64,000 nucleotides of DNA from Scenedesmus sp. ARA3. Its lineage: Eukaryota; Chlorophyta; Chlorophyceae; Sphaeropleales; Scenedesmaceae. A program made the position numbers and the translations under genes. The notes under the pieces are model-generated. The model ran no database searches. It was not told where the DNA came from and saw only the letters and a program-made list of their open reading frames with translations. Below, piece by piece: positions 365 to 63,942 of this stretch; the first letter of the stretch is position 1; every line of letters begins with the position of its first letter. Where the stretch lies: the NCBI GenBank assembly GCA_004335835.1, contig RWJK01001857.1, positions 31,652-95,651 of the forward strand. Direction: 5' to 3'.

Positions 365-2650
365 GCTGTGTGTCCGTGGAGAGTACTACAGGTACTGCTG
401 CTGCCGCTGAACCATCTGCGCTGTTGCTGGCTGCTGCTGCTGCTGCTGCTGCTGATGCCTCCTGAGCCACAACCTCACTGAAGTGGTACAGCTGCCCCCG
501 AGCTGTCACCCCAGCAGGAAACAGAGGGCTGGCATCTAACACCTGAACCTCAACATACCCCATCTTCATGCCTCCCATGCGGATGCTGAAAGGCAGCACA
601 CCAGCAAGCGGCACCAGCTGCTCCTGCTTTTGTTTGAATGTGCTGCTGCTGCTGCTGCTGCTGTCAGTGCTTGCTGCAACTCCAGCGTCTGGCTGCTGCT
701 GCTGCTGCTTTGGGCTGCATGTTGATGCCTTACCGTTTGCAAGGTTGCTGCTGCTGCTGCTGCTAGGCTGCTGCTGCTGCAGCACCCCTTTGCTCAGGTA
801 CATCAGCCCCCCACACTCCGCATACACCACCCCTCCAGCAGCAGCAAATGTGCGCAGCTGCTGCAGCAGCGCTGCGTTGCTGCTCAACTGCTGCAGATGC
901 TGCTCGGGATACCCCCCACCCACATAGATTCCAGAAATGCCAGCTGGCAGTGAAGCATCTTTCAGGGGGCTGAAGTGTACTAGATCAGCACCTGCTGCTT
1001 GCAGCAGCGTCAGGTTGTCATGATAGTAGAAGCAGAAGGCTTCGTCACGCGCTACTGCTATCCTGCACCTGTTGCTGCTGCTGCTGCTGCTGCTGCCGCT
1101 GCCATTGCTGTCAATATGTGCTACGGCTTTCGCGTGTTCAGCAGCACTGCATGTTGGCACTGGTACAGCAACATCATCCGGAGACTCAGATTGCGTAGCT
1201 GCGGGAGTTTCTGCATCAGCTGCTGCTGCTGCTGCTGTCGCAGGGGGTGGCGGGACAGCTGCTGTTGCTGCTAGCTGCAGCAGCAGCTCCAGGTCTGTGT
1301 GCTGCTGCACAAGCCTGCCCAGCCGCTGAACATACTCAGGCACCTGCTGCTGCTGCTGCTTCTTCTTCTTGTCATTTCCCAACTTATCCTGCTGCTGCTG
1401 CTGCTGCTGCTGCTCGTGTGGCATGGTGAGGCCCAGGTGCCGCTCAGGCACAGCCACAGCCGCATCCTGCAGGCAGCAACGCAAAGCAGGGCTGGTTCTT
1501 TCACACAATTGCAGTCTGCGACACACTCATGTGCATCCCACGGAAGCAACACAGCAGCTTATGGTGATGTTGCACGCAACCAGCAGCTCAGTGAGACCAA
1601 TTTCCATGTGCTCTGTATGGCCCTGCAGCTCTCTGCTCAGTGCAAGCCAGCCAAATGTCAAATTGTTTTCTACCGTATCACAAGGCTGCGTTCTAGTGCT
1701 AGGTGTAACGCTGCAGTGAATGGTGAAGCACAATCCCAACAGCTCTGAGCGCAGCAAGTGCAGCAGCCAGCTGCTGTGGCGACCCACTAGTGTACTGCCT
1801 ACCTTGGGTATGCATCCGAGCACCTGTACTGCTGCCAGGCCAACTGCACCACGCGGCTGCTGCTGCTGCTGCTGCTGCTTGTTCTCCTGCGCAGCAGCTG
1901 CTGCTGCTGCTGGTGCTGCTGCTGCTGCCAGCGCCTCCTTCAGCCACACCCCATGTGCAGCACTGCCCACTTTGTTCAGCAGCAGGCCCCTCAGGTTCAA
2001 ATCCTGGTCAAACTCTGCGTAGCCTTTGACCAGCGCTGCTACAGACCGTGCCATGGCCCAGCAGTCAACCACCAGCACCACTGGAGCACCCAGCCACTTG
2101 GCAATCTGCAGCAGCACCAGCAGAAGCATGCACAGAAGAGGAAAATGACATAAGCATTGGCTCATCCGCGCACTTACCAGAACTCAAGACATAACACCTG
2201 GCTCTCAGCACAAGCACCTGCTGCATATTCAGATGTACCACAGCGGCAGCAGCTGCTGCCAGCCACATAGCAGCCTGCCTTCCAGTAACCCTGCTGTTGC
2301 TGCTTGTCAGTTGGCATCATATAAAGCAGTTCAAGCAGCTCTGCTGTTTCCCGCAGGCTGCAGGAAAGCAAGCGGCTACCTGTGCTGTCCTGCTGTCTGC
2401 ATGGAACCAACAGTGCTGTACAAGCAGCTGTTTCCTGCAGGCTGCAGGGAAGCACGCGGCTCATCTGTGCTGTGCTGCCGTCTGCATGGAACCAACAGTG
2501 CTTTACAAGCAGCAAATTCCTGCAGGCTGCAGGGAAGCATGCGGCTACCTGTGCTGTGCTGCCGTCCTCGCTGCTGCCGTCCCTGCTGTCAAACAAGCCC
2601 ATCACTCCCTCCACCACAGCAATGTCAGTATCTGCGGTGTGCCTGCACGC

Positions 2651-2710
<60 letters not shown>

Positions 2711-2760
2711 NNNNNNNNNNNNNNNNNNNNNNNNNNNNNNNNNNNNNNNNNNNNNNNNNN

Positions 2761-2817
<57 letters not shown>

Positions 2818-4204
2818 CTGTCACATGCAGCATTCATGACCACATATGATGCCAGCATCTACAATGCATCATCAAAAAATAAGGTTGCTCCAGGAGCAGT
2901 GGCTCAGCCCATGTGTCACTTACACCAAGCCGTTGTGTTGCTTTGACCAGGCTCATGTCATGTTTGACCAGGCATGGGTTTGCTTGCTCACCTACGGAAG
3001 GTGTCCAGCACCTGCTGATGTGTCTATAACAGTATTTATGCACTCGGCCTAGCCATTTGTCGCGTTAAATGGCTAGGTGCTTTTGTGTTAGTTTGACCAG
3101 GCACATGTCATGTCTGACCCGGCGTAAGTGTGCTTGCACACCTGTGGAAGGTGTCCAGCACCCGCTGACGTGTCAGCATCCAGCCATGTATAAGATAGCG
3201 TGAGAGTACTGGTTTATGTGCAACAATTTGGGGACTACACCACTGGTTGAAGCCTTGAAGCCCAAGAAGGCCGAGTAATTGAACCATAAACCCCGCATCT
3301 CCCTTTCCAGACATGACTATTAGCCAGCCGAACAGGACCAACACGTCCGTGCTACTGTTCGCCGGATTACATACAGTAGTCGATTTGTCTCTTTTGCTGG
3401 CTCACCTGCGGAAGGTGTCCAGCACCTGCTGGCTTCACTTCAAATGGCTAGGTGTTTTTGTGTCGCTTTGACCAGGCACTTGTCATGTTTGACCAGTCAC
3501 ATGTCATGTTTGACCATACCTGTGGAAGGTGTCCAGCACCTGCTGACGTGTCAGCATCCAGCCATCAAGGTTGATGGAGGGCCGGCCAGTAGCTGCAGCG
3601 TGGTGCATAGGGTCTAGGAAGTCAGGCCCAACCTTGAACCCTTGCACAACAAGGCCTTGCTGCCTGCAGGAAAGATGTTGGTGCAGCAGTTTAGAGGATA
3701 GCATGCTAGGATGTGTGCCCCAACAACGCAGCATCTACAGTTTTGCGGCTGTGGTGTGTGTATGCTTGTTATGGGAGCCACTGAGCTGCGGCTGCGGGTG
3801 CACTAGCGTGCCTATGATGCGTTGATAACTTGTGCATGTGCTTTGCACTTGCACGTAGATGCTCCTGATGAGCCTGGTTGTATTGTTGAATGCCAAGGTG
3901 CCAAGCAGGGCTTTCACGTAGCACAGCAGCCACAACAGCAGCAGCAGCTTGTGCCTGGCAGCTGTTGCAAAGTGTGGATTTCGGCAAACTTCTAAAACTG
4001 TGTGATCGATAGGTTGCCAGCCTGCAACCATATCTTTTGCAGACATGCCTTGTTGGTCTTAGCTTGTGAAGTAATGCCTGCAGCAGCAGCAGCAGTACCA
4101 CTGCCATGCTGCAGTGCAGCACACCTGAGCGCCTGCATCACTCCCGTCGCCAGCGACGTCTTCCCCACGCCACTGTGCGTGCCCGCAATCACAATGACCT
4201 TCAT
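1..4204 (-). CDS. CobB/CbiA-type cobyrinic acid a,c-diamide synthase homologue, 3' end at or beyond the window edge
   Basis: Family role: ATP-dependent amidation of the a and c side chains of cobyrinic acid (or a related tetrapyrrole) using glutamine. The ATG at 4204 opens directly onto a P-loop (AGTHSGVGKTS). Exons, with matching phases: 4125-4204, 3520-3663, 2549-2642, 1803-2105, and 1466 down to about 75. They give, in order, FKVGPDFLDPMHH and LDGWMLTRQ, VVEGVMGLFD, APVVLVVDCWAMARS, then a class I glutaminase-like domain with the nucleophile Cys in YAECGGLMYLS, and the C-terminal motifs GYVEVQVLD and GNVLASYVHLHFG. Long poly-Gln, poly-Ala and poly-Ser runs interrupt the last domain and are absent from bacterial relatives. 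The reading frame stays open to base 1, but a GTAAGT donor at 69-74 suggests another exon further left. Family assignment is firm; the substrate in an alga is unknown, since green algae are not known to make cobalamin de novo. Confidence 0.85.
2651..2815. repeat. Long CAG/CTG triplet tract with an assembly gap
   Basis: About 20 perfect AGC units lie on each side of 50 N (2711-2760), so the true length is unknown. On the sense strand of the CobB-like gene this is a CTG tract ending about eight bases before the acceptor of the third exon (2642). Confidence 0.95.
2925..3515 (-). repeat. Three diverged copies of the exon 2 end and its intron in the CobB-like gene
   Basis: The true end of exon 2 (LTRQQVLDTFHR plus donor) lies at 3520-3560. 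Partial copies of the same exon end lie near 2990-3025, 3140-3190 and 3404-3435. Two of them also carry the neighbouring intron element containing TTTGACCAGGC and CATGTCATGTTTGACC. The 3140-3190 copy still reads GWMLTRQRVLDTFHR. Two further short copies of the exon 3 end (GSTAQ region) sit at about 2350-2400 and 2440-2490. Confidence 0.8.
3048..3077. repeat. Perfect 11-bp inverted repeat (hairpin)
   Basis: The arms CCTAGCCATTT (3048-3058) and AAATGGCTAGG (3067-3077) pair perfectly around an 8-base loop. The right arm recurs alone near 3441-3450 without its partner. It lies within an intron of the CobB-like gene; no function can be read from it. Confidence 0.6.
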
Positions 4205-13861: not shown

Positions 13862-16800
13862 CTACACGTTGCAGCCCTGCGGGTACGCGCCCAGGCCTCC
13901 CGCCCTGCAGCAGTCCAGCCGTGTAGGGTACACCTGCACCTTTCCACTGTACAGCGCCTTTGCATATGCCATGCTCACTTCACTCAACTCAAGCTCTTCT
14001 GCTGTTGCAGTGGGGGTGCCGTCAGGGCCATACAGGTTGTAGTATGCCAGAGAGACCTCGGGTGCATTCACACAGCCGCGCTTTGCTGCGCTTGGTGCTG
14101 CAGATGCGAACCAGGCGCCGAGCTTCTTATCGGGTGAGGCCGGCAGCACGCATCCGGGGCGGGGTGGGATAGCATTGACTAGGCGGTGCATTACGTTGGC
14201 GTGTGTTTTGATGACGCCCATGGTGGAGTCGTCCAGGTCAACACCATAGGGGCCTGCAGCAGCAGCAGCAGCAGGCGAAGGGGAAAGATGGTAAAGTGTG
14301 AGCGTCCAGTGAAAGCACCCGCTGCAGGATCATGCCAACAAGCACAGGAGACGCCAGATGCAACTGCAACCACTGCCAGGCTTCAATATCAATATCAAAT
14401 CTTACGAGATTCTGCAGTCACATGTTACTAACACAAATTGTAACAACAAAAGAACACAGCAAATCACCCTTGGGCACGCCCGGCACGGCCCACTTCCAAT
14501 ACAGCCTCCCCAGCAGCGGCGTGTCCTCCTCAACCGCCTTCTGCACCGCATCTCATTTTCCCCTAAAACATGTCACGATCAAGCTGAATAACAACAACAA
14601 TAACACACACTCACCCTTGGGAAGGCCTGGCACGGCCCATCCAGTAGAGGCTCCCCAGCAGCGATTTGTTCTCCTCAACCGCCTTCAGCATAGCATCTCA
14701 TTTCTAGGCCCCAAATCATGTCACTAACACGCTATATGACAACAACAATAACACATGCTCACCCTTGGGCAGGCCCGGCACGGCCCACTTCCAATACAGG
14801 CTCCCCAGCAGTGGCTTGTTCTCCTCAACCGCCTTCTGCACCGCATCGTATGTCGCACCAAACTTGTCACTAACAAGCTGTATAACAACAACAATAACAT
14901 ACACTCACCCTTGGGCAGGCCCGGCACGGCCCACTTCCAGTACAGGCTTCCCAGCAGCGGCTTGTTCTCCTCAACCGCCTTCTGCACCGCATCGTATGTG
15001 GCACCAAAGACGGGGTCGCGCAGCTGCCTGATTGCTGCGGTGTCATCTGGGCTGTCCAGCTTTTTTCCAAACTCCTCGAACAGCAGTGGCATGCCGATGG
15101 ACTCTGCTGCCTCAAGGTGGCTGGCAAGCCACTCGCGCAGGAAGCCGCCCTGCTGCTCGTTGGGGCTGCGAGGAAAATTGTGAAGTAACAGTGAGAATGT
15201 GTGTGGGCGTCAAAGCGCTGAGCAAGGTTGGTGCCACGGATGGCGTGGCAATGTCAGCCGCTGGGAGGGTCTGTCGAAATGCACACACAGGCATCAGTTG
15301 TACCACACACATGTTTGTAGGATGTCTGTTTGTGCTAGCGTCCAGTCACGTGTATGTGCCCTTGCCACCCACACACATGTGCCTAGCATGCAGGTGTTTC
15401 CACATGTAGTCAAAGTCAATGCTAACTCACATCTCCCAGTTGTCGGGCCAGGCGTGTGCCACCGCAAAGTCCATGTGCCTGTTGTCGTCCACAAAGTTCT
15501 GGCCGGTCTGCGCTGCCCAGGGCTGAGGGTTCTTGCCCTGGTTGGCGTCACCCTGGCCAAAGAAGCCCTCGGAACCTGCGGTTGATAAAGAACATATGTT
15601 TGGATATTAGCCGTTGACCTGAAACCTGCAGATCTAGATCAAGCATTGGAAAGAGGCTGACATATGTTAAGTCGATTCAAGGAGTGGTGCTGAGGTGGTC
15701 GACGTCCTGATTTGCCAATGGAGGAACACCTGTAGCACGACGCTGAGTCAAACTGTTGCTGGCCGTGCGCAGCTGCTGCTGCGGTTGCTGCTTGCTCTGT
15801 GTGCAGCTGCATGTGCTGCTGCTGCTGTTGCTGACCGTGCGCCCAACCTGCTGCTGCTGCTGCTGTCACTCACCGGATGACACCAGGTGGTGCTGCTGTT
15901 GCTGACCAAGTGCCCAACCTGCTGCTACTGCTGCTGCTGCTGCTGCTGCCAGCACTCACCGGATGACACCAGGTGGTTGGGGTCCTTGCTCCTCACATAG
16001 TCACCCATCTCCTGCAGGCACAAACAGTAGCAGCGGCAGCAGCAGCAGCAGCATGTGAGTGGATGCAGTGTTTGCATCACATAGTTACCCATCTCCTGCA
16101 AGCACAGCAGCAGCCAGTAGCACAGCTGCGTGTGAGTGGGTGCGATGTGACGGTTGCCACTGACATGTGTGCACGCTGGCGTCACTAGAGCTGAAGACAA
16201 TTGCTGCCGTGCAATCCGGATAACCTTGCTGCAGCTTGCCAGCAGGCACTGCTAGCAATGAAGACCTTATTCTTTGCAAACCAAAGGGCTAGCAGTAAGC
16301 CCTCGGGATGATGTGACACCCCACCTTGAACCAGGATGACAGCGCGCCGGAGCACCATAAGTGGCTGGCATCAAATTTTATTTTTCACCATCCAGGCTGC
16401 GCACCGCAGAAACCTGACCGCTGTAAAGCAGCAGAAACCCACCTTGAACCAGGATGACATTGCGCCGGGGCACCATGAGTTGGCAGGCATCCATGTCTCG
16501 CAGCGCGGCTCATTGATCAGGTTCCAGGCGAGGATGGTGGGGTCGTTCTTGTAGAGCAGGCCGTTGATGCTGTTCTTGCGGCCTGCGCAGAAATAACATG
16601 GGTGTTGTTATGTGTGGTGTTATGTTTCACTTTGTGGTTGATCAGGTTCCAGGCGAGGATGGTGGGGTCGTTCTTGTACAGCAGACCATTGATGCTGTTC
16701 TTGCGGCCTGCATGGACACAATATGTATGTTGTCATTTGTGGTGTTATATGTTACTTGGTGGTTGTTGAGGCTTCCAGGCGAGGATGGTGGGGTCATGCT

Positions 16801-17540
16801 TGTACAGCAGACCATTGATGCTGTTCTTACGGCCTGCAGTGTGACGACCCACATCATCAATGTGTTCGATCTGAGTAGCTGTTGATGTGTTGCCTAAACA
16901 GGATAATACAGTGAACATAAATATCTCATCAGTATGGTGATTACCCACCCGTGATGGCGTCCACGTGGTCCTTGTACAGCGCCTTGCAGGCCTCCTCCTT
17001 GAAAAACAGCGCGTGGCGCAGTGTCTCGTACTCGTTCTGGGCCACAGACCGCACCTGCAAGAAGACGGGAAAATCAAGGCAAAGAAACATAACAGCAGCA
17101 TCAGCATCAGCACATGTATGTGAAGAATAGCGCGTGGCACGGCGTCTCGTACTCGTTCTGAGCAATCCAGCGCGCTTGGCGCAGCATAAGAGAGAAGATA
17201 GAGACAGCAGATGAGGAAGTGAGGCCATATGGCAAAGCTTCAGCAGATCATATGCTGTCTCCTGCTGCTGCACAGCTGCGCCTCAACGTCCGCTGCACCG
17301 CGTGCGCCAGGCCGCACCACTTGTCCTGTGCTGCTGTACACAGCTGAGCTATGTGCTGCTGTCTGCTGCTGTGCGGGCGCCAGTTCGTGCACACCGTGGT
17401 GCCTGTGTGCAACAGACATCGCGTGCTGCTGTCTGCTGCTGCTGCACCGTTTGCTCCACTTGCTGCGCACCGTGGTGTCTGTGTCGCCTCCGTTCTTCTC
17501 CTCGAAGCGGGCCATGGTTCTGCCTGGGCCACACCTACAG

Positions 17541-17575
<35 letters not shown>

Positions 17576-18084
17576 TTGCGCCCGCACAGCAACCAGCTGG
17601 ACTAGCACCATGATCAGAGCATATCTGCATTTGCAGAGGCGCAAATACAGGCGCTTGGGGCGTGCTGCTCAACTGACCACCTGCTAAAAACCTTCTTGTG
17701 GTACATGTCCCTCCTCAACACCCACACACACCTGCCTCAAACACCGCTGCAACCACCCAGTAGCCGCACCGCCACTCACCAGTCCACGTGGTCCACACCC
17801 GCTGCAGTATACAGTATCACAGCTGAGCCCAAACACTGAACGAAGGGCTGCTGTTGCCACTCACCAGTCCACGTACTGGTCCACACCGCTGCAGTATACA
17901 GTATAAGCCCTGTTGGAGAAGCTTCCCAGCCTTAGTAGGCCACACCAGCAGCCGCACCGCCACTCACCAGTCCACGTACTGGTCCACGCCGTTGTAGTAC
18001 TTCCAGTTGTCGATGAACGACAGGATCAGCCGGATGCCGTGGCGGGACGCAGAGTCAACCACATAGTCCAGCGCCTGCAGTAGT

Positions 18085-18118
<34 letters not shown>

Positions 18119-19479
18119 GCAGCACAGTTCTTGTCATGGATCAGCCGGATGCCGTGGCGGGATGCAGAGTCGATCACATAATCCAGCGCCTGCATGCAAG
18201 GACAGCACACACTTGTTGTCATACGCTGTTTCTACATGATGTGCCCATTGACCAGCCATGATGCGTGCTTCTGCAGGCCAAGTTGAAGCGTCACAGGTGC
18301 ACACAAGTTCACACAGCAACATTATAGCAGCCGTGTTATTTATTTTTATAACACCAGGGCTCACCTGCAGCCCCTGCTCAACACACATCTTATGGGTGCG
18401 CACATTCGCATTTTTCATGCTAGGCTGTCCATCTTTACACATCTGCCGTGCTGACACTACGCGAACGTTAAACTGGGTGTTTAAGGCACACGGGCTCACC
18501 TGTAGGCCCTGCTCGTCAAATTATCCAGGTGCCGTCTGGAAAGGGAACTGCTCGCTGATGCTGTGTGCCCAGGTGCATGCGTAAAAATGGTGCAATTCAC
18601 AGTTGACCTGTGCCCTGAACCAACCTCATTGTGTGCTTGTTCAGGGGCGCTTGCAATATTACATGACCAGATAATACACGCAAACACTAACAGCTGCGTA
18701 ACCATGAAATCCATGCACAAAACGATGCAATCGCGCACCTGCAGGCCCTGCTCGTCATACTTGCCGGGTGCCGTCTGGAAGGGAACTGCTCGCTGATGCT
18801 GTGCGCCCAGGTGCGCGCATTGCTGTCACAACTTGGAGCTGACCCATGCCCGAAGTAAGCACAAAGTGTGCTGCTCTATGCCATTTGACGTTTGATATGA
18901 AAACAGGTAAACACAAAACCCATGGTATACACAAGGGCGCACCTGCAGGCCCTGCTCGTCATATTTTCCGGGTGCTGTCTGGAAGGGGAACTGCTCGCTG
19001 ATGCTGTGCGCCCAGGTGCGCGCTGACGTCATGCCCATGCTCGCAGCGTTTTTGAACACAGCATCCACGTCACTCTTGCGGCCGGCTGCAGTTCACAACA
19101 GCAAGTAAAGCGAGAACTGGTCAGTATTGTTCAGGACATCGTGCTGTGTGCTGGTGTGCATGCAGCAACGAGCGTGCTGCTGCTGTTGTTAAGCTCCTGC
19201 TAACACATATGCATTGATGCCAGCATCCCCCCACCCGCTGCACCGCAACATCATTCCGTTGCTGCGCTGTTTGATGTGCGCTCTGCTGGTGCTGCTGGCG
19301 CTGCAAGTCTGTGTTGCAGCTGCTGGCGCTGAACGACTCCTGCGCTTGCTGCCCCGCTGCTAATGCTGCTGCTGCTGCTGCTGCTGCTGTCACTCACTGG
19401 CTGCCATGGTGGTGAGCTCGAAGGCATTGAAGCCAGTAGGGTAGAAGGGCCTGCAGTTCTCATCGAACTGCAGCCAGCA

Positions 19480-19510
<31 letters not shown>

Positions 19511-21169: not shown

Positions 21170-24100
21170 CTAGTCGACCAGCCTGTCTTCTGCCGCAATC
21201 TTTTTGAGCGAGTCTCGCGCAGGGCCTGCAGGAACCAGCCCAGGGGCTACGTACAGCACCTGGTACTCGGGCTTGCGTGACAGGCTGGCCATGCCCCGCT
21301 TCACTCGCCGCTGCCAGCCCTGCTTGGCCCTGCACAGCGGTGACAAGAGGGACACATTGCAGCGACAGTGAGTCCCTCATGTAACACACAAATCGTGAGT
21401 GGTGATGTACAGCACCTGGTACTCAGGCTTGCGCGAGAGGCTGGCCATGCCTCGCTTGACACGGCGTTGCCAGCCCTGCTTGGCCCTGGAAAGACAGCGT
21501 GTGTGGCAGTAGCAAGCACGGCGTGGCGGGTAAGGCGGTTGCGCTTTGCAGAGCGCAGTGCAGCTACAACAGGTCGCATAACCCAGGTCCCCCCGGTCAA
21601 TGACTTCTTTGCAGTCCCATGGCTTTGTGCAACTCACCTGAGGGAGCCCAGCAGCTCAGCAGCAGGCATCCCAGGGTCCAGGATCACCAGGCTGTACTCA
21701 GCAGCAGCAGCAGCGCCGCTGCGCGCCTCAGCGTGCGGCGGCAGGCAGCGCTCGATGCCCACCACGGTGCGGGAGTGGCCCTCGTGCTGCAGGTACAGCG
21801 GCGGCTTGCCTGCAGGGAGATAGTATGTCGGAAAACAGGTAGCAGCAGCAGCAGTGCGAGCATGTGGGTGCGGGAGTGACCTCCGTGCTGCGGGTACAGC
21901 GGCGGCTTGCCTGCAGGGAGATAGTATGTTGGAAAACAGGTAGCAGCAGCAGCAGTGCGAGCATGTAGGTGCGGGAGTGACCTCCGTGCTGCGGGTACAG
22001 CGGCGGCTTGCCTGCGGGCAGCAGCAGCAGCAGTAGTGGGATCATGCGGCTGCAGGAGATGCTAATTATGCGCAGACTTTGCACCCTGCTACAGTAGTGG
22101 CGTGCACAGCTTGTATGAGGAGCCACTTGAAACAAAACCGATGCAGGCGGGGGGCTGTGTCGCTGCACGTGTGAAAGGCATGCACATTGGCGGGCAACAC
22201 ATCAGCACCAAGAAAAGAGTGCACATGCTACAAATTGTCAGACTTACTGTGCAAAGCGCATGTTGCAAGACAGATTTCACTGAAGATCATCATCGGCAAT
22301 CACACTGGTTTAGGCGGCACTGTCCTTGTCAGCACACGACTCACCAGTCACAATGACAGAGCTGCGGCGTGGCATCTTCTGCAGCCCGCCGCCGCTGCTG
22401 CTGCTGCCTGCAGTGGCATGCACAGCAGGCAGACCCACTGCTCCATTCACTGCTGCTGCTGCTGCGGGTGGGTCAGCTGTAGACAGCCAGCCAGGCTGCT
22501 GCTGCTGCTGCTGCTGCTGCTGAGCAGGCACTGCCCTCCTTTGACTGAAGTAGGCCCAGATCCACTCAGCCATGCGCCTGTGCCTGCTGGGGTCTAATGG
22601 CTGACCGACACCACCTGCTGCTGCTGCTGCTGCTCTGGTGCCACCCTTGTTGCTGCTGCTGGGATCCGCGCTGCTGCCTACCTGCCCTTGCTGCTGCTGC
22701 TGCTGCTGGTGGTTGCCGCGGTCCACATACGGCAGGATACTAGGATGCCCTCTGCCGCTGCCGCTGCTGCTGCTGCTGCCACTGCCTGCACCAGCTCCTC
22801 TACCCCTGCCCCTGCTCCTACCACTGCTGCTGCTGCTGCCCCTTCCAGCTGGCCCGCTGGGCCCAGCCTGTCTGCCAAAGGCCCTGAATGGCGAGTGCTG
22901 CTGTGCCTCAGGTGACTGCCTGCAGCTGCTGCATACATCGTAGTTGGGCGTTTGGTAGCTTTTGTAACGAATGCCAATGATGGGGCCCTGCTGGCATACG
23001 TTGCAGGCAAAGCCTGTGTGGATGGTGGCTCCCGAGGCATCTTCTGCTGTTGGCGGCGCTTTGCCTGTGCAGCAATGAAGTAAGGAATGTTGAAGGGTTG
23101 GAAAAATTAATTGGTTGTTGTGGCAGAGGGTGGTGCAGAGTTGTGAGCGCAGGCAAGGGTTGCTTGGCACCTCCCTGACTGCTGTGCCTGAACCCACAGC
23201 TGAACCGCGGCGGTTGCCTGATGACAGCAACCGCCCCTTGCAGCATACAACACAAACTCAGCATGACTCCCGTCCCAATCAGCATCCCATCAGTGATTGT
23301 CCGTATTAAACCTACACCAACAAAGATGCTGGCCCACACACAACACAGCACTGTCTGCCCTGCCAGGGCACCACAGCAGCAGTGCCACAGGTGCGTATGG
23401 AGCTTGACATGTTTTGTAATCTATGATCGTATCTATTGATTGTTGAAGGACTTAAAAGGCGCTGCTATACCACCGATACGGTTGCTTTGCTTCCACAGGC
23501 CGTTCGCTGCTTCATCACGTCGTGCGCGCTTGCAGCCAGTACGCGCAGCAGCAGGTGAAACTCGGGGTAGCAATCACGTGCAGCAACGCACGGACGCAGC
23601 ACAGACTGGCTGAGCTGCACCGTGCTGTCCACCCTGCTGCTTACAGCATCCGTGGACACAGACTCTGCTCTCAGCGTGATCAAGTCATGCGTGGCAAAGC
23701 CGGGGGCAGTGCCAGCACCTGTCGTGCTGGATGCGATGCTGCAGCTGGAAGCAGCAAAGCTGCCAGTGAGTAGCACCGCAGCTGCAGCAGCACTACAATT
23801 CAACACAGTACACTGCATGCTGATCATGCACGCCAGTGTGCTACGTGCTTTGCGAGTGTGCTACGTGCTTTGTGCTACGTGCTTCGTCGCAACAGAGGCA
23901 CGGAAACATCACCCTCATCACAAGGCGCAATATGTTTGCAGCAGCGGTGTTGGCACATGGCTGCATGCCCATCCTCAGGCAGAGTTTCCTTGCACACGCA
24001 GCACATACAACCAACGTCACAGCAGCATCAGCTGAGGTACAATTCGCTGTTGCAGAACATACCACTAACAGCAATATAACATTCATATATTGTTGTTTAT

Positions 24101-25487
24101 GCACCCACAGACTGAGGGCTGGCTGGAGCTGCTGCAAGCGCCAGGCACCCACTGGAGGCTGGTCTTCACAGCAGGTGGGCTGCCACACCCTGGCTTTGCA
24201 CCTGTGCTGATGCAGGACGCCACACCCTTGCATGCGCCACACCCTTGCATGCGCCACACCCTTGCATGCGCCACACCCTTGCATGCGCGTGGTTGATGCA
24301 GGACGCACTGTGTGTCCTGCAAGCAGAGCCATACTAATTCAAACCTCAGCCATAGTTTAGAAGCAGTACAACACAGAGGCAAGCTGGCTTGCCTCCTGTG
24401 AGGTATGCAGGTTTCGGCCGCGGTGTCACAGGATGTGCGCCTGTTGAACAAAAGTGTCTAGCTGCAACTGCAAGCAGCTACTTCCTGCATACAAGAGACA
24501 GCTGCACTTGCACCTGTCAACCAAGGAGCGCGCCGACGAAACAAGATGCGACAGCCATAACTGCTGCTGCTGCCGCTGCTGCTCGGTCAGATGAGAAGCA
24601 GGTGCAGGCTGCCAAGAAGAAGCAGCCCAACAAGGGAGGCGTGTACTTCCCCATCGCTGCATGCCAGGTGGGGGCAGCATGGGTTCAGAAGTTTAGAAAA
24701 TGACAGTTGGCAGCATTGCACAAAGTGTTGTTTGTGCAGCAGCCGAACCCATGGGCCCACCAAAGGAAGCCTCCCACATTACGCCGATGTTAGACAACCT
24801 CGGCATTCCCTGCACTGCTCCTGCTGCCGCCGCAGACATTTCACGCGGCGCAGGCGGACTTTATGAACAGCGTGTTCCTGGGCCCCACCAACTTTCTGAC
24901 CTCTGCATTGCTGCTGCTGCTGCTGCCGCAGAAATTTGACGCGGCGCAGGCCGACTTTGAAAACGGCGTGTTCCTGGGCCCTATTGCTTCGCTCACCTTC
25001 AACGGCCCGTATGCAATGAAGGGCAAGCAGCTCACATTTGATGTGGTGAAGATGAACATCGGGCTGGGGCCGTGGCGCTTCAGCATCCCTTTCAAGAAGG
25101 ATGCGAAGGGCATCGCTGAGATGGACCCGCAGTGAGTTATGGATGTGTTGTTGTGTGTTGTTTGTCTTATATCGCTTCCGCAGCAGCCTCATGCAGTCCC
25201 ACCACAGCGCAGCCACAAATCAGGGCAGGGCATGGAATAGGATACTTATGCTGCAGCTACAAGACCGGTGAAGTTTGTAGAGACCTGCAAAGCTTGTGTG
25301 TTTGTGGCAGTCGGTTGCCTGGTACTGATCTGTCAAGTTCTCAGCGTTGCTCTGGCAATGCACTTAGGGCACTTGGCCCACTGCAATTGCCGCTGCTACT
25401 GCTGCTGCTGCAGGGATGCCAAGAAGCTGCCGTTCTTCCTGTATGCATACATTGACAGGGACATCGTGGTGGCTCGGGGCTTACTGC

Positions 25488-25518
<31 letters not shown>

Positions 25519-28152: not shown

Positions 28153-28187
<35 letters not shown>

Positions 28188-36646: not shown

Positions 36647-36686
<40 letters not shown>

Positions 36687-36766: not shown

Positions 36767-36799
<33 letters not shown>

Positions 36800-49933: not shown

Positions 49934-50164
49934 GCAGACAAGCCTGCTGCTGCCACGGTCATCTACAACAAGCTGCGGACGCAGTGGGGCAAGCTCAAGG
50001 AGCGCAGCGATGAGGTGAGCCATCAACAGATGTTATCGGCTTTTGGTAAATAATGGTTGTGGTGCTGGCATGCGATCAGTTTATTGGTGCTGTTTGTGCA
50101 TGGTTGCTTGCAGGAGCTGGGCGGGCTGGTGACGGAGGGCAGCGGCTGCCCAAAGGCGGCACTG

Positions 50165-50208
<44 letters not shown>

Positions 50209-50560
50209 GGCTGTACACCTGCAAGCTGCAGGAGCTGGGTGGGCTGGTGGCGGAGGGCGCTGGCTCATGTTGATGCTGACCTTGCTGCTGATGCTGCTGC
50301 GGTTGCTGTCGCTGCTGTGTCTCAATTTTCGAACTGCAGGAGCTGGGCGGGCTGGTGGCTGAGGGTGGCGGCTGCGCCGAGGAGGCACTGACTGCTGAGA
50401 TTGCTGCTGCTGAAACTGCTGCTGCTGATCTGAATTCCTGCAGGAGCTGGGCGGGCTGGTGGCTGAGGGTGGCGGCTGCCCCAAGGAGGCGCTGGGCGGC
50501 TACCTGAGCGGCATGGCTGAGGAGATGCGCGGCATGGACTACGAGGTGGAGGACGCCTAG
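47677..50560 (+). CDS. Lys/Ala-rich then acidic nuclear-type protein, family unknown
   Basis: Not recognised. Six exons sum exactly to 398 residues: 47677-48405, 48706-48810, 49203-49285, 49582-49667, 49938-50014, 50444-50560. Residues 1-165 alternate Lys and Ala/Pro like a histone H1 tail, with several basic clusters that could act as nuclear localisation signals, and contain a KEN triplet (PGKENKV). Residues about 165-190 are Gln/Glu/Asp-rich. The rest looks folded: HEQFMALVAEKEAELGKHC, LWSELDDVGNESEDEG, FLGTQHSGQMQAIFSSHLK, WQAAFCRWAAIVMAARRES, YNKLRTQWGKLKERSDEELG, ending MRGMDYEVEDA. A chromatin or nucleolar role is an inference from composition only. CTG tracts precede three of its acceptors, and junction copies occur before the second, fourth and sixth exons. 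Confidence 0.75.
49156..49199 (+). repeat. CTG tract of about 14 units directly before an acceptor
   Basis: The tract runs to within three bases of the AG acceptor of the exon at 49203 and replaces the normal pyrimidine tract. A similar tract lies at 50166-50209 and another at 49899-49929. Confidence 0.95.
50105..50400 (+). repeat. Three copies of the last exon start of the nuclear-type protein gene
   Basis: GCAG acceptor plus ELGGLVTEG / ELGGLVAEG codons recur at about 50114-50165, 50230-50270 and 50339-50395, before the intact exon at 50444. The intron stretches between them carry CTG tracts. Confidence 0.92.
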
Positions 50561-52295: not shown

Positions 52296-52307
52296 GGCAC
52301 CTCGCCA

Positions 52308-54667: not shown

Positions 54668-56085
54668 ATGGCTAGCTCCATCAAGCGTCATGATGCTGGC
54701 CAGCAGCAGCAGGAGCAGCAGCAGCTGCATGGCGCGAATCTCACAAACTGTCAGTTCGCGTGTTTAGCCCTCACCCTTTCGTTGGGAACAATCAGCCAAT
54801 GGTATGACTATACAGGTGAGCAAGCGCATCGTAATTGGCGTTCCAGCCAGCATCAGTGCAGCGTGCCTGAGGCAGGAGCAGCCCATCTACTGCCAGGGCA
54901 AAATGCATATGACTACACACCAGGAACATACAAAAACAGCAGCAGCAATTGCCGCAGCTGAATGCTTAGCAGATAGCACAGATAGCACTGCACCCTGTGC
55001 AACACACGGCCTGCGCAGCAGCCAGCACTCCACAAGAGCACTGTGAGCAGGCTGGTATCCTTGTCACATGTTTCGCCAGGTCAGCCTTGCTGAAATGCCA
55101 AAGCCACACAGCTCGCTTGCTGATGGCATGTGCCAGCAACTGTTTTATACTTTTTTTCCTCCGCCTGCACGCGCAGTCCATTGCTCATCCTGTTACTGTC
55201 TGCTGCGCTCTTCCTGCAGTCTACACTCAGCTCAGCACCACACTTGCAGGAGTCTTCTTTCCTGCAAGTGACTGGATCACAGCACACCTCAGCTTCTATG
55301 GTGTGTATGCAGCAGGCTTCCTGGCTAGGCCCCTCGGAGCAGTCTGCTTTGGCCACGTGAGTGCAAAAGCAGCACAGTGTGGCCGCATATTGTGGCAGCA
55401 ACAGCCAATGCCAGCATCAGCAGCAGCTGCATCATCAAAGCAGCGGTGGCGGTGGCGGCAGCAGCAGCAACAGCAGCACCCGTCCAGCAGCTGCTAGCTG
55501 TTACACTGCTCAAGCTGTTCACACGCAACACACACCAAGACACCGTATCAGCCACCAGCAGCTGTCAGACTGCACAGCTTTGTTATGTTTTTTTACAAAA
55601 GCATCTGATATGTTTCACCATACAGTCAGAAGCAACCGGCTTAAGGACATGCTCTTTCATCCTGTCGTATGCTCGTCTCAGGTTGCTGATGCCTTCAACA
55701 GGCGTGCCTCAGTGGTCCCTTGCATGTGGGTGACGCTTCTATGCTGCACTGTACAGTCTGCAGTAGCTGACCCTGATATTTGCGCTCTATATGCGTGCCG
55801 CAGGTTTTTGATGCTTACAGCAGGCGCGCCTCTGTGGTGACCACCATCTGGGTGACGCTTCCATGCTGCACACCGTACAGTCTGCAGTAGCTGACCTTAA
55901 CACTCGCGCTCCATTTCCTCCATTTTATGCTGCAGGTTGCTGATGCTTACAGCAGGCGTGCCTCAGTAGTGACCACCATGTGGGTGACGCTGCTGGCCAC
56001 AGTCGGCATCGGCTGCCTGCCGACCTACCAGCACGTTGGCGTTGCAGCACCCGTCATGCTGCTGGTGCTGCGCTTTGTGCAGGGT

Positions 56086-56119
<34 letters not shown>

Positions 56120-57146
56120 GTACAGCAGCAGCAGTTGGCAGCAGGAGCTAGCCGTTGCAGCGGTAGCAGATACATCAGGCAGTGTGATCAGCAGCAAGCA
56201 GCATGTTGCGGTGGCAATGAACCTCGTTTTGCCATGTGGCAGCAGCAATATCAGCATCACCAGTAGTGGCTATCAGGCAATGCTGGGAGCAGATGTCTCG
56301 GACTGTCCGCAGCACACAAACACCTTCAGCATCAGCAGTGCTGACAATAGCGAAGTGTGAAGACGCAGGCAACACAACCAAGACAACAGATGCCCTTCAG
56401 TTGAAAAACAACCAGCAGCTGCAACGGCTATGGCTCATGTTTTGCTGCTATTGCTGATGTGGTTTGCCGCTGGCTGCTGTGCTGCAGGCATGTCTGTAGG
56501 AGGCGAGGTGAGCTGAGCTGAGGGCAACAGCTGGTCTGAGCAGCAGCATCAACCGCAGTAGCAGGCATAGCTGCAGCATCTGCAGCAGCCACAGCCGTAG
56601 CCGCAGCAGCACCACAGCAGCGACGTCCACAGGTAAACAAGGAGCAGAAGGAGTACCAGTGAATACATAGGATGTGGTGCCGATGTTGCACTGCATGAAC
56701 GAGGAACATTAATGCCAGCAGACTCCAGTACCACTGGCGTGCTTGCTGATGCTCTACTTTTTGCTGCTGATGTGTGCAAAACTGCTTTTCCCTTGTTCGG
56801 CTGCTGTGCAGTATGGCGCTGCTGTTGTGTACTTGTTTGAAGCTGCTCCTGTAGGCAGGAAGGGCCTCTGTGCATCACTGGCCCAGCAGGCAGTAGGTGC
56901 GTGGCGCTCTGGAGTGCACCTGACTGATATAGACATTCTTCACAATACCAATGCACTGGCAGCAGCACTCAGCCTGACGATTGCACAGCTGCTTAAAAAA
57001 CTGCAAGATCAGCTGCAGTCGCCTGCTATGGGTGGGTGAATGCATTGCCTGCTGTTATTGCTCAAATGCACATGCCTGGCAGGCGCTGTTGTTTACCATG
57101 CACTTGTCAATTCCATGTCGTGTTGACAACGCACATGCCTGGCTGC

Positions 57147-57187
<41 letters not shown>

Positions 57188-60100
57188 TGCTGCATGCAGC
57201 GCCCGGCATCATTCTGGGCATCCTGGCCTGCCTGGGAGTGCTGCACTTCTGCACACCAGGTGAGCGGCGGCAGCAGCAGCAGCAGCAGTGACAGCAGCAG
57301 CAGGGGCAGCAGCAGCAGTGACGGCAGCTACATCACCAGCAAAGGCAGCAACTAAAGCAGCAGTGGCAGCTGCGTCAGCAATCGCAGCGGTAGCAGCAAT
57401 GCAGCAACTGTGCAGTGCATTTGCAGCAGACAGCCCTGCTTATACACTGGCGTGTCGCCTCAAACCTCATCCAGCGCCCGTCAACATTATGTGTGCAAGC
57501 CCGGGGTCCGCCTTCAGCATCATCCTGTCTCCGTTCACGCACGTTGCCTGCCATCAATGTGCATTGCAGGCCAGCTGCTGCTGTGGGGCTGGCGGGTGCC
57601 CTTCCTTGCAGAAAAATTAGCAAAATAATCCGCCCTGCATGTTTGCACCCTGCTGACACTCAGTCTTCACCATGGCTGCCATTGTGATGAACTGCAGGCC
57701 AGCTGCTGCTGTGGGGCTGGCGCGCGCCCTTCCTTGCTGCAGCCCTCGCAGCACCTTTCGCTGTGCTGCTCCGCGCTAGTATGGTCGAATCTATTGAGTT
57801 TATAACCTCCAAGCGGCAGCATGTGCTGCAGCGCGTGGCGGCGACGGCAGCAACGCGCGTCGCCGATACGTTCGCGACGCAGCGCACGACGTCGGGAAAG
57901 CTGATGAGTCGCCGACAGATCCAGCGGCAGCTGCAAAATGTAACAAAAGTGGTGCTTTCACCAAACAGCAGCATACAGGAAGATGATGACGTGGCAGATG
58001 ATGCATCAAATGGCGAGGAGCATCTGGATGCACATGCAGCTCTTGATGGAATGGAGGGGATGTCAGCGCGGCGTGCGCGAGGGGTGTCAAATGCTGGCAC
58101 CGTGTGCAGCAGCCGCGTGCACGAGCGGGTGTCGGAAGGAGGCAGTGTATTCGGCCGTGCTTCACATGGCCGCGGCAGCTGCCATGCAGCAGCAGCAGCA
58201 GCAGCAACCGCTGAGCTGCCGCTATCAGCCAGGCCCTCAGACGATGACGATGCAGGGGACAGCTACAGCAGAGGATGCGCTGCAGATGATGCGCATCAGC
58301 AGCCAGGCACAGCAGCAGCAGCAGCAGGTGCGCTAAAGCGCTGCATAACATCGGACACAGACAGAGCAGTAGCTGGATCCGAGCGCACGCCAGGCACTCC
58401 CCACACACCCTACTCCCCATTCAGCCTTACTCAGCCACTCTCACCACAGACTGCTGCTGCAGCAGCAGCAGCAACAGATGGTGGAGGTGCAGCAGCACCC
58501 AGCCAAAAAGCAGAGCTAAAGCTATGGCTAGACGAGTCAGCTGCTATAACAGATATCGGCTGTGAGATGCAGTACGTGGCTCAGCTGGAGCTGGCTGGGT
58601 CGAAAATAACAACGCATGTGCCGCTGGCAGTGCTGGCGCGGCAGCACAAGCAAGTGCTGTGGCTGCAGTTTTTCCTGGAGGCGAGTTATGCTACAACCTT
58701 CTACATCTTCACCGGGTGAGTCGCAGCATTAGCTTCGTCAGTTTCCAGCGTGATAGCGTTTGTTGCATCGACGGTGCGGCACACAACAACTGTTAGCTGC
58801 AATGCGGTAGCAGTTTCACTGCTGCAGCGTGGCGTGTGACGTTGAGTTGGAGTGGAGTTGAGGTGGAGTTTTTCCTGGAGTCCAGTTATGCTGCAACCTT
58901 CTACATCTTCACTGGGTGAGTTGAGACGTCGATTGAGACGTCCGTGGTAGGCTGCTGCAGCATGCACACAGTAGAAATGCACGATTGTGTCAAGTCCTGC
59001 GGCGACTTTCTATGTCTTCACTGCTTCTGCTGCTTTGCTGTCTTCAACACGCAGCTGGCTGCCCTCCTACCTGCGAGCCACCACCAAGCTCCCGCCCCAA
59101 TCCATCATGTGGGCCCTACTGGCCGGCATGGCCCTCTTCTCTCTTACAATGTCTATTAGTTGCTCATATCATCGTCCGCTGCTGCGGTGCACCTACTCAT
59201 CTATGCTGGCCGCTGCTGCTGCTGCTGTTGTTGTTTTGCTGAATGCAGTTGGCTGCCCTCCTACCTGCGAGCCACCACCAAGCTCCCTCCTCACTCCATC
59301 ATGTGGGCCCTACTGGCAGGCATGGCCCTCTTTGCTGCAGCAGCACCCTACGGAGGCGTCTTAGTGGACAGGGGCCTCCCAAAAGTGTGGGCCCTGATGG
59401 GCCTGAGCCTTGGAGTGGTGGCAACAAGCATCCCAGTCATGTTTGCGCTGAACGCGGGCTCCTTTGTGCACCTGATGGTGCTGCTGCCCGCCATGCTGGG
59501 GGTAGCTGGAGTGATGGGAGGTGTGCTGAGCAGCATTGGGCCGCAGATGTACCCGGCGGCTGTGCGGGTAACCGGGTTCACTCTGGGTGAGTGCAGCGCA
59601 GGAATTCATTGCTTGTGCGGCAGTGCATTTGCTAAGTTTCCTTGTTTCGGTGTTTGTTGGGTACCTGATGGTGCTGCTGCCGGCCATGCTGGGGGTAGCT
59701 GGAGTGATGGGAGATGTCTTGAGCAGCATTGGGCCGCAGATGTACCCGGCGGCTGTCAGAGTCACTGGCTTCACCCTGGGTGAGTACGTGGCTGCCTGCC
59801 ATGCACGCCTTGGCATTGTGCGCTCTTGTACAGTCTTTGTTACTTCTGCTCATTTACTCTGGGATGTTCCGTACATGCATTTTGCACCTGAGGGTGCTGC
59901 TGCTGTGCATGCTTGGGGTGGCTGGGGCCATGGGCGGCGTGCTGAACAACATCCTGAACTTTGCCGTTGCTGCTGCAGGCCACAGTCTTGCCATGTCAGC
60001 GTGGGGAGGCCTGTCCCCCTTCATGGTCTCAGCCATTGTGCTGCTGGTGCAGCCCTCCGCACTGGCAGCAGGCCTGCTGCTAGTCGTCACCGGCCTAGTG

Positions 60101-60367: not shown

Positions 60368-62542
60368 GTGGCAGCAGCATCACGTATGTATGCTCTGGCG
60401 TGCTGGTGCTGCTGGATGTGCTGCAGCACTGCACTAATTGGAGACAGCAAGTGAAGAGATGCAGATACCCATTGTGTGTTTGGCCTGAGGACGTATTCAA
60501 GAAACAGCGGCTTTCAGTTATAGGGGAAATGTGTTTGCAACTAGCATCTTATGCCAGGCAGCATCTGTCATATCCAGATATCCAGCTAACACTACTTCAA
60601 TCCTCATCTGCTCGACACCGAGCTTGAGACACGTGGGTACACCTTGTTACAGCTTGTTACTCATCATGGTGCATTGACCAGCTACACGCCACACTGCACA
60701 ACACACAAAATACGACTTCAGCTTTGAATGAAGCAGATAGCCATGGTGGTGGTCGCGGCGCTGCTGCTGCTGCTGCTGTTGCTGGCTTGCGGCCTGAGAG
60801 TAGTGCACTGCAGCAGCATAGGCTCTGGCTCTCAGTACTAAGCAAGCAGCACACCTGCTGCATACCTGATGGGCGGCAGGAAGTTTGATGCATGTTCAGC
60901 GGATGCTTTTGATCTGTGAAAAGGTGCAGGACTTGGCATTGTTCCTAGGCCAGCACTTTGCGTGCGGCATGTCAGGATTGGTGATGACTGTTCAAGCTTT
61001 GTGCTGCTGTGCACTGCTGAAGAATGGGGAGGTCAAGAGCAACAAGGCATGCCACACGTTTTTTTTGAAAGATGGCAGGGATGGCCTGTTCAGCAAAGCG
61101 CTGCAAAGTGGGGAGGATCTTGGAGGGCTGGTCATCTTTGCAGGGGGGGTTTCCATATGGGGCTGCTATTGTGCAGGGGCCTCAGGCTGCTGCACAGCCT
61201 GTTGCCGGGCAGCCTGGGTTGCTGCTTTACGTGCAGACGGTGTCTGAGATACCCATTGCCGCAGTCACTGCACAGCGGTGTGCAAGACCAGGGGCCAGCA
61301 GGGCCCTTGTGTCTTTGAGCCTGGGCGGTGGACGGCATGTGGTGCAAAGTTAGCATGAGTAGTGGCTGCCCAGCTGTTGTGTGGCCATGCTGCAGCTTCT
61401 ATGTTGAGCTGTACCATTTTTGCATGACTGGCATGTCACATGCGGTAGTACCGCCGGCAGCTGTTGGCTGATTCTAATAGGCTATCACTGACGCTGAGTC
61501 AGCAACTGCACTGTGGATACAACACACATTTCTCAGTAGCATATGAGTGCATCAGCATCAGCACCAGCACCAGCATCAGCATCAGCACTGCCATTGCTTA
61601 CCATGTTGCCATTCAAGCCGTAACACGTTTCAACATTGATCATTGATGGTCACCGATGTGACCGATGTGACTACTGGCAGTGCTGCCCAACAGCGCAACA
61701 CAACAAACCTGCGTCCTTGTCTGGAGCAAAGAGTGTACTGCCTTCCTCTTTGGTGCTCCAGGCAACAAAGAAGTAAATCCCTCAGCCACTGGCAGTTCAA
61801 CTGGCTGAAGAAGTTCAACTCGAAGTGACTTCTGAGTCAAGTCTGAAGTTCTCAAACCATCTTCAACACTCCGCAGTGCCGTACAGCAGTGGATGCACTG
61901 GGCACCGAGCTTAGATCTGCCGAATTTGAAATTCACTGAAACAGCCGGTGGCCAAAGGCTTGACATACGGCATGCACAGCAGCGCTGTACATGCATGTGC
62001 ACAGGGTCCTTGAACAGCAACCTTGCGTGCTGTGGTTACATTGGTCTTAGGGCCTAGAATGCTTCTGATTTCGCAGCATCCAAAGGAGCCCTCCCTCGAC
62101 TGATCATCAGTGACAGCTGCCTGGGGCAACCAAGCCCTTGTGAGCACCGGCGCACACCGAGCCGCATGAATCCCCAGAAACAGTCAAAACACTTGAAAGT
62201 AATAACAATCAGCTAAACCTCAGGACACCTCAGCTGTCACCCGAGTTTCCGTATGTGTGAACAGTGTGACTCGATTAGCTAACCTTGTCAGCTTTCTTTG
62301 ATGATGCGGTGCCTTTTGTCATCTTAGTGTCAACGATTTCCAAGCATGCCTTGCTCTGACGCCATCGGAGGATAAGGCGAATCAGTGTAGCAATCGCCAC
62401 CCCTAACGGGCCCAAACCGACTCCATCTCGCGGAAACACAGCTGAACACGCCCGAGCATTCAGGATTTTGATTTACAAGAGCAAACCTACAAACCGTACC
62501 GGCTACATCACCCCGTGGTGCCTGTTCGCACTCTCCGCAAAC
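60368..62542. other. Intergenic between the two tandem MFS genes
   Basis: About 2.2 kb. Open frames at 60885-61353 plus exist in all three frames but show no family motif. A hexamer-like CAGCAY repeat is at 61550-61590, and a double GATGTGACC unit at 61655-61672. No gene supported; the right end should hold the promoter of the second MFS gene. Confidence 0.55.
61550..61590 (+). repeat. Simple repeat of CATCAG/CACCAG units
   Basis: About seven hexamers alternating CATCAG and CACCAG; noncoding. Confidence 0.85.
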
Positions 62543-63576
62543 ATGGTAGAGCAAGCAGCAGGGAAGCAGTTGCAGCACGGGAGCCCACATGGCTACGGCG
62601 CAGAGCTCACCACAAGGCAGTTTGCGGTTCTGATCGTTGCTATCGCGCTCGGAACGCTGCTGGAATGTGAGTGTAGCAGATGCCCATGAGTCAGCACTGC
62701 TGCTCCTGCTTGCAGGAACAGCAGCAGCACCAGGCCGCTGCTAGCTAGCCAAACTGCATGAACTCCTTGAATAGACATATGCAACAGCAAGCAGCTGGGT
62801 TGAGCACGAGCTCAGCAAGTGCATCGGGGCGCTTGTCCCTGTAGCATGGTAACTGCAGCAGCACTGTGGCGTCACTGCTGGCAGTAACTGGAGCATGCAC
62901 TCACAGGTGTCGTGCCTTTGTGCTGTTTGAGCTGCGTTACTAACAGATAACGCGCCTGCACTCAATAATTTCTGAAAATTGTTGCAGGGTATGACTTCTT
63001 TGCGTACAGCCAGCTGAATGCCTACCTGACAAAGGTCTTCTTCCCTGCGGGGGACCCCGCGGTGACGCAGCTGTCCTTCTGGGGCGTCTACGCAGTCGGC
63101 TTCATCTCACGGCCCGTGGGAGCTCTACTGTGAGAAAAACTGCAGCATTCTAGCAGCAGCAGCAGCAGCAGCTGTATGGCAATCCCACAGCATGTAGGTG
63201 CTATGTGCAGCCGTTTCTTGCAGCAGCAACAGTAACTGCAAAGCGCGCCAGCAGCGCTGACATTTGCAGCAGGTGGTTAACATCTGCATGGCATCTGCTT
63301 GGTGCTCTCACAGGTGGTTTGCAGCAGTAACCCATTGTTGAGAGCACTTCAGTGTCAGCAGACTGGCACTGGTGCCGCAGTACGACTTGCGGTGTAGCTG
63401 ATGCTGCTTTCTGTTGCGCTGCTGCTGCCTCTGCTGCTACTGCTGCTGCTGCCACTGCTGCTGCTGCTGCCGCCGCAGGTTTGGCCACTTGGGTGACACC
63501 AGGGGCAGGCGGATCTGCCTGCTGGTCAGCGTCACGATGATGGCCATTCCTACAGTGCTCATTGGCTGACCCATGC

Positions 63577-63616
<40 letters not shown>

Positions 63617-63942
63617 TGTTGCTGCCACAGGTTTGGTCACCTAGGTGACACCAGGGGGCGGCGCATTTGCCTGCTGGTCAGCGTCACTATGATGGCCATC
63701 CCTACAGTGCTGATTGGCTGCCTGCCCACCTTTGCCCAGGCGGGCATTGCAGCACCTATCTTGCTGGCATTGCTGAGGGCCATACAAGGCCTGGCAATGG
63801 GAGGTGCGTGGTGGCACTGCTGCTGCTGCTGCTGCTGCATCAATCTAATCGTCAGCAGTCCTGGCGTAGTGCAGCAGGATGCACTGAGATGCTGCTATGT
63901 TTGCATGGTATGTTGCGGAGATGAGCAATGATTAAAACGACG

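Follow-up and report, generated by a model that had tools for sequence, protein, structure and literature searches.

The window considered here, that is, the whole analysed stretch of 64 kb from Scenedesmus sp. ARA3 (contig C1443:31652-95651), belongs to an assembly of 87.3 Mb in 1567 contigs. It carries two mannanase genes, an FkbM gene and an MFS gene (MFS 1), together with predicted CobB/CbiA-like, fibrillin-like and Peptidase_C78-like genes, and its self-alignment, used to list local repeats, shows these crowding it by the dozen. Here, I show that segments straddling one exon-intron junction recur as tandem copies inside introns. A uniform search, in which exon edges were looked for inside the adjoining intron, found 35 copies in the window; of 99 edges tested 22 carry at least one, and 19 of 54 introns and nine of ten multi-exon genes are affected. 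The first-pass annotation had claimed that junctions are tandemly duplicated in this DNA; the claim holds, and its tally of more than 25 copies is exceeded.

The exons of four genes, hereafter the anchored genes, were fixed by spliced alignment of homologous proteins, which gives 30 introns and 60 junctions. The near-identity of mannanase 1 and MFS 1 to proteins of Tetradesmus obliquus assigns the DNA to T. obliquus itself or to something very closely related. Protein identity is 97-99%, and the four alignments contain neither insertions nor deletions, the proteins being left intact as had been stated; the donor is GT in all 30 introns, while AG at the acceptors was a requirement of the aligner. 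After training on these genes, a gene finder recovered 56 of their 60 junctions and, at the setting chosen, called 18 additional sites. It was run on the sequence after collapsing repeats, and models outside the four anchored genes are predictions. An earlier gene finder, trained on long open frames, was dropped, its 2263 and 685 predicted introns being mostly false; most long open frames are non-coding in their own frame, and nine of 84 were kept.

The uniform search covered 14 stretches (264 kb in total), namely the window, the rest of its contig and twelve stretches of other contigs, and was confined to genes scoring at least 40. With short or low-complexity exon edges dropped, 426 of 464 edges were tested, including 99 of 108 in the window, where the nine dropped belong to exons shorter than 24 bp or of low complexity. 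Control queries of reversed sequence gave at most one hit per distance class. Two window genes scoring below 40, one at 52038-53200 and a second MFS gene at 62.5-63.8 kb, were excluded from the count; of the statement that both MFS genes bear copies, the part concerning MFS 1 is thus confirmed, the other gene lying outside the count. Repeats of 270 and 152 bp are present at the two excluded genes. Two runs of N, 50 bases each, lie at window positions 2711-2760, between two GCA tracts, and 40983-41032; the contig is therefore a scaffold with unfilled gaps.

Among 26 self-alignment pairs in the anchored genes (same strand, offset up to 1500 bp), 22 join a one-junction stretch to an intron; the others are two exon-intron pairs, one intron-intron pair and one of low complexity, and none is exon-exon. 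Copies are found for 11 of the 60 anchored junctions at a 10-bp margin (two of these rest on the low-complexity pair), and at a 2-bp margin there are 25 copies, all with GT or AG and 24 of them in the adjoining intron. Aligned copies continue flush across the exon edge and the splice consensus. GT or AG is kept in 34 of the 35 window copies (Table 1) and in 81 of 84 over all sampled stretches, which agrees with the earlier suggestion that putative splice sites have been doubled. The placing noted earlier, with copies of exon starts upstream and copies of exon ends downstream of the intact exon, is seen as well, but it is forced by the geometry of any one-junction duplication.

Table 1. Anchored genes of the window and junction copies found at its exon edges (window positions; spacings and offsets in bp)
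Gene	Positions	Strand	Edges, copies and basis of the model
Mannanase 1	13865-20300	-	T. obliquus protein P0017, 627/633 aligned residues identical
Mannanase 2	6420-9958	-	Unnamed protein P0001, 587/604 identical
FkbM gene	26367-29242	+	Unnamed protein P0165, 290/292 identical
MFS 1	54668-60364	+	T. obliquus protein P0121, 661/667 identical
CobB/CbiA-like gene	2992..3142	-	Donor edge 3142, copy 2992, offset 150; predicted model, CbiA Pfam hit
Mannanase 1	14441..15008	-	Donor edge 14909, copies 14763, 14615, 14468; spacing 146, 148, 147; exon fixed by P0017
Mannanase 1	16320..16491	-	Donor edge 16443, copy 16325; without significant intron-side homology
Mannanase 1	16513..16838	-	Acceptor edge 16582, copies 16707, 16833; period 125
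Mannanase 1	17753..17999	-	Donor edge 17968, copy 17865; further short copy 17780 (outside the 35)
Mannanase 1	18023..18194	-	Acceptor edge 18074, copy 18189
Mannanase 1	18487..19023	-	Donor edge 18943, copies 18739, 18500
Peptidase_C78-like gene	21242..22058	-	Acceptor 21329 (copy 21485); acceptor 21809 (copies 21910, 22011; period 101); predicted model
Fibrillin-like gene	24815..24981	+	Acceptor edge 24932, copy 24836; predicted model
Fibrillin-like gene	25388..25695	+	Acceptor edge 25629, copies 25535, 25414
FkbM gene	27269..27996	+	Donor edge 27377, copies 27576, 27774, 27982; spacing 199, 198, 208; exon fixed by P0165
FkbM gene	28850..29133	+	Acceptor edge 29093, copy 28900
ZUFSP-like (Peptidase_C78) gene	30901..31435	-	Acceptor edge 30976, copies 31187, 31395; predicted model
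ZUFSP-like gene	33132..33507	-	Donor edge 33439, copies 33290, 33149 (33149 without GT); predicted model
Gene at 38.3-40.4 kb	39348..39968	+	Donor 39451 (copy 39700), acceptor 39942 (copy 39819); predicted model
Nuclear-type gene at 47.7-50.6 kb	50109..50494	+	Acceptor 50444, copies 50340, 50232, 50114; predicted model
MFS 1	55668..55994	+	Acceptor edge 55936, copies 55804, 55682; exon fixed by P0121
MFS 1	57565..57737	+	Acceptor edge 57698, copy 57570
MFS 1	58664..58921	+	Donor edge 58715, copy 58915
MFS 1	59021..59332	+	Acceptor edge 59249, copy 59055
MFS 1	59464..59785	+	Donor edge 59586, copy 59779 (outside the 35)

Mannanase 2 provides an internal negative within the window, copies being absent from all six of its introns, compared with five of ten introns bearing them in mannanase 1. 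As regards the predicted genes, the fibrillin-like one matches Pfam PAP_fibrillin slightly below its cut-off, and a Pfam search with the nuclear-type gene gave no hit. Peptidase_C78 is matched by two minus-strand genes, at 21170-22573 (profile 120-199) and 30078-34815 (profile 53-105), which may represent paralogues or else fragments of related genes. Two further repeats were noted: the end of the last anchored FkbM exon (29169-29242) recurs 237 bp downstream at 29406-29478, with 93% identity and beyond the aligned protein, and the ZUFSP-like gene holds an array of about six 128-bp units at 32225-32947, modelled as intronic where the model is poor.

The phenomenon is not confined to the window. 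Over the 14 stretches, 84 copies occur at 51 of 426 edges (about one in eight), in 43 of 232 introns and in 18 of 33 genes; 13 of these copies, at six of 35 edges, come from the rest of the window's contig, and a further 36, at 23 of 292 edges, from the twelve stretches outside that contig. That most genes are affected, as the first-pass annotation put it, is accordingly true of the window, mannanase 2 excepted, but describes little more than half of the sampled genes. A case in point concerns the gene for the 49-kDa subunit of complex I on contig C1100, with copies in five of ten introns; it is collinear with solved chains (E 3e-215) except for a missed stretch of about 32 residues. Copies were also found in one of five introns of an eIF3i gene (Pfam EIF3I, stretch L017) and in eight of 13 introns of a TPR-like gene (L016), so named by its look, with no search behind the name. 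The same search found none in the 63 introns of stretches C300, L009 and L018. Variation from gene to gene exceeds chance (simulated P <0.0002), and GC content at third codon positions (GC3) does not predict the presence of copies (Spearman 0.05, P 0.76). In stretch L012, arrays with periods of about 100 and 150 bp (2612-3483 and 970-2017) were called intron-only, on a weak gene model.

The copies are tandem duplications straddling a junction, as their regular spacing and their intron-side homology indicate. Over the 14 stretches the 84 copies are spaced by 84-305 bp (median 130), regularly within arrays, and the arrays reach six units. Spacings form two bands, with 68 copies at 84-156 bp and 15 at 193-249 bp, one more at 305 bp and none at 157-192 bp; among all 211 duplication rows 11 fall in that interval. 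On the intron side, in-register homology extends beyond six bases in 33 of 51 nearest copies, by a threshold whose pass rate among random pairs is 5%. Compared without gaps, intron positions 1-6 are 87% identical between copy and edge, and positions 7-18 are 53% identical. A gapped identity measure was dropped as uninformative, random pairs reaching a median of 0.73; its figure of 75 of 83 was set aside, and its per-base intron rates proved similarly weak. Introns with copies are 1.7 times as long as those without (median 499 versus 292 bp). In a genome search that skips common words, none of the 28 matches listed outside the FkbM locus covers its arrays, nor is any dispersed copy of the MFS 1 arrays among the matches listed (part of 189); since these matches lie outside the arrays, the latter do not resemble dispersed elements.

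Whether junctions are copied in excess of other gene positions had been set beforehand as a point on which the claim would turn, and copies are indeed commoner at edges than in introns or deep within exons. In the window, 100 edge windows with their centre 10 bp into the exon were compared with the adjoining intron, and 24 have a copy there at 80% identity; the figures are none of 60 at 120 bp into the exon and three of 83 at 20 bp into the intron; the same test on other contigs gave 23/295 versus 4/264. In a broader comparison, made at four thresholds with intron windows free of exon-copy bases, exon edges were copied in 75/384 cases on C1443 and 51/852 on other contigs, introns near the junction in 14/285 and 10/689, and deeper introns in 116/1401 and 81/2412; for exon windows lying over 120 bp away from an edge, the adjoining intron held a copy in 1/163 and 5/354. 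Across the thresholds the excess of edges over deep introns is 1.8- to 3.2-fold raw, and 3.6- to 6.3-fold once intron pairs are counted once, a halving called for because an intron duplication is scored from both of its ends.

Random placement of units of the observed spacings would put 42% of duplications across one junction, 33% wholly within an intron, 18% wholly within an exon and 6% over several junctions. Among 172 events within predicted genes (15 of 226 events being unmappable, and 39 of 211 intergenic or at gene ends, all left out), 112 are one-junction, 30 intron-only, 27 exon-only and three multi-junction, against expectations of 51.6, 79.2, 37.0 and 4.1. Since this count uses aligned length and counts arrays several times, the conclusions rest on the edge-level counts and the anchored-gene pairs. 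In part a junction excess is to be expected: exon-derived parts should stay recognisable for longer, and presumably only intron-internal and one-junction duplications are well tolerated.

A signature that had not been expected lies in the coding frame. Exon and copy differ at 84/1528, 71/1532 and 246/1526 sites of codon positions 1, 2 and 3, a ratio of third to first-and-second positions of 3.2 (95% bootstrap interval by edge 2.6-4.0), rising to 4.5 (2.9-7.3) in the anchored genes. Copies differ among themselves in the same manner (58/735, 38/726 and 138/725; ratio 2.9, 2.2-3.7). Copies neutral from birth should, by my reckoning, show equal rates of difference from the exon at the first two codon positions and no more than double that rate at the third. 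Base composition is an unlikely cause because the bias persists at CpG sites alone (70/224 differ at position 3 versus 30/346 at positions 1 and 2). Constraint on translation, the first reading of this bias, is disfavoured: frameshifting indels occur in nine of the 84 copies, and the ratio is 2.7 in these versus 3.0 in the others, which makes translation of the copies an unlikely cause. The signature reads to me as divergence predating the copies, acquired when their sequence would still have served as a coding allele, and hence as exchange between diverged homologous chromosomes. Along the same line, the assembly sizes of 109 and about 208 Mb for T. obliquus strains (PMC5552973) are compatible, in my own reading, with diverged haplotypes.

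The explanation that I consider probable, though well short of certain, is tandem duplication across junctions with exchange between diverged alleles, the copies being dead. Tandem duplication of segments of about 85-250 bp, each straddling one exon-intron junction, would presumably result from the repair of breaks or from unequal exchange. It would be tolerated because the intact exon keeps the outermost splice site and the spare edge leaves with the intron; duplications within exons, or over a whole exon or intron, would mostly be purged. The copy would then be dead sequence, accumulating frameshifts, its intron part decaying faster than its exon part. Most copies would bear another allele's version of the edge, either by unequal exchange between diverged homologues or by later recombination of the exon, and such an origin would explain the differences at third codon positions. 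As a tentative extension, introns might archive the alleles of exon edges, unequal exchange between strongly diverged homologues depositing in them the edges and splice sites of other alleles; each intron would then hold fossil alleles of its own exons and a stock of usable splice sites, and would lengthen in steps of about 130 or 205 bp.

Several observations weigh against this explanation. Intron homology past the consensus is lacking in 18 of the 51 nearest copies (one being unassessable), some of which have exons 95-98% identical, and this lack exceeds the loss that simple decay gives. The 51 copied edges stand against some 11 intron-only groups, though uniform placement predicts 0.42 : 0.33; exon-derived sequence decays more slowly because only one branch evolves freely, which I estimate to give an edge excess of about twofold, so that a factor of about two remains. 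The purge of exon-internal duplications is not seen in the event count, with its 27 exon-only events for 37.0 expected; at least four of the eight exon-only calls in the window are not exon-only under the anchored models, and the anchored genes do show the purge, with no exon-exon pair among the 26. Moreover, covariance between third and first-second positions fails to separate an allelic offset from weak constraint, and a second copy of FkbM or MFS 1 is absent among the matches listed in the assembly.

Alternatively, the copies might be functional: selection would maintain them as alternative exon edges whose splice sites work, giving alternative or regulatory splicing. This would suit the coding-type differences, both of exon versus copy and of copy versus copy, as well as the nearly complete retention of GT or AG and the conservation of the first six intron positions over the following twelve. 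It is nonetheless unlikely: copies in the anchored genes possess one splice site and, by eye, no consistent partner at the far end, spacings are even over the three phases (29, 28 and 27 of 84), frameshifted copies show an undiminished third-position bias, and no protein gap appears in the four spliced alignments. Plain neutral tandem duplication on one chromosome, without allelic exchange and with the junction bias due to selection and decay only, is the simplest process and accounts for tandem structure, regular spacing and frameshifts; yet, as I reckon, its third-position ratio should not exceed 2 for exon versus copy and should be smaller still for copy versus copy, and the observed ratios exceed this even at their lower limits of 2.6 and 2.2, so I give this rival little credence as well.

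The record of a relative bears on whether the copies are real. In the T. obliquus protein P0122 the MFS exon start appears twice in tandem, in two versions, at the junction where the window bears copy 59055; another assembly thus shows a duplication at the same place, as judged from the protein. Both versions carry glutamine, as does the window copy, and the window exon has histidine; it seems that the window exon, rather than its copy, has changed. This public protein seems to include a translated junction copy, probably an annotation error, and one of a type that may recur in the genus. This record tells against an assembly artefact, by which two haplotypes of a heterozygous strain would have been joined end to end at conserved exons. 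Such joining would yield coding-type differences and diverged intron parts, and the assembly is small, with 87 Mb versus 208 Mb (PMC5552973) and 172 Mb (PMC7590803) for other strains; the N runs of the window point in the same direction. The artefact is however very unlikely, as no N run separates an edge from the copies counted for it, regularly spaced arrays extend to six units, and the record with P0122 has a longest contig of 5.07 Mb. Finally, a tie of the duplications to triplet (CAG/CTG) tracts, as proposed by the first-pass annotation, with slippage or recombination at the tracts as the driving force, is most improbable: some arrays contain or adjoin such tracts (e.g. 25388-25693, 36423-36799 and 63431-63720), but tracts of at least five exact units occur in 17 of 43 introns with copies versus 54 of 189 without, despite the greater length of the former.

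Junction duplications have been proposed as one way in which introns and splice sites originate and introns lengthen, and are usually studied as single cases. With about one in eight tested edges bearing a copy, the rate of duplication, the decay of copies and the disregard of splicing for duplicate sites would become directly measurable. There is also a warning for annotators, as a public T. obliquus protein includes a tandem version of an exon start.

Among known systems, introner elements multiply intron sequence in algae as dispersed copies. For the FkbM and MFS 1 arrays, the two genes searched, no dispersed near-identical copies are among the matches listed. In intron gain of the Rogers type, the duplication of an AGGT-bearing exon segment inside an exon reportedly gives a new intron; here none of the 26 anchored-gene pairs is exon-exon, no search for new introns having been made.

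The first-pass annotation knew of no described genome with such a rule. A prior description of such copies in algae was not found among the titles and abstract openings listed, and the words "intron" and "tandem" are absent from the main text of PMC12571836 and PMC7590803; single junction duplications, on the other hand, have been published in potato and human. According to PMC3887541, tandem repeats of 1-50 bp are denser near intron-exon junctions in two green algae. Repair of staggered breaks makes small tandem duplications (insertions <100 bp, with no tie to junctions in the passages on it in PMC8355091); the likeness in local head-to-tail duplication makes it a candidate mechanism here.

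The closest likeness is with the potato RdRp gene, in which a tandem duplication over an intron-exon boundary copies a splice site and part of an exon, a duplication of 83 bp within intron 1 being also mentioned (PMC4974935). In common are direct head-to-tail copies, regular spacing and a unit holding exon and intron of one junction (33 of 51 here). The potato case concerns one gene, with a new intron and an extra exon proven by RNA reads (PMC4974935); here, unlike in potato, the copies stay intronic, the four anchored proteins are unchanged, and there are dozens of copies in 64 kb. In human segmental duplicates, internal tandem repeats at exon-intron boundaries have been linked to alternative splicing, amounting after curation to 27 intron modifications in recent paralogues (PMC2812944). 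The alga differs from the human case in the spread over many genes, including those for the complex I 49-kDa subunit and eIF3i. To sum up, the features that seem new are how dense and widespread the junction copies are, their two spacing classes and their coding signature.

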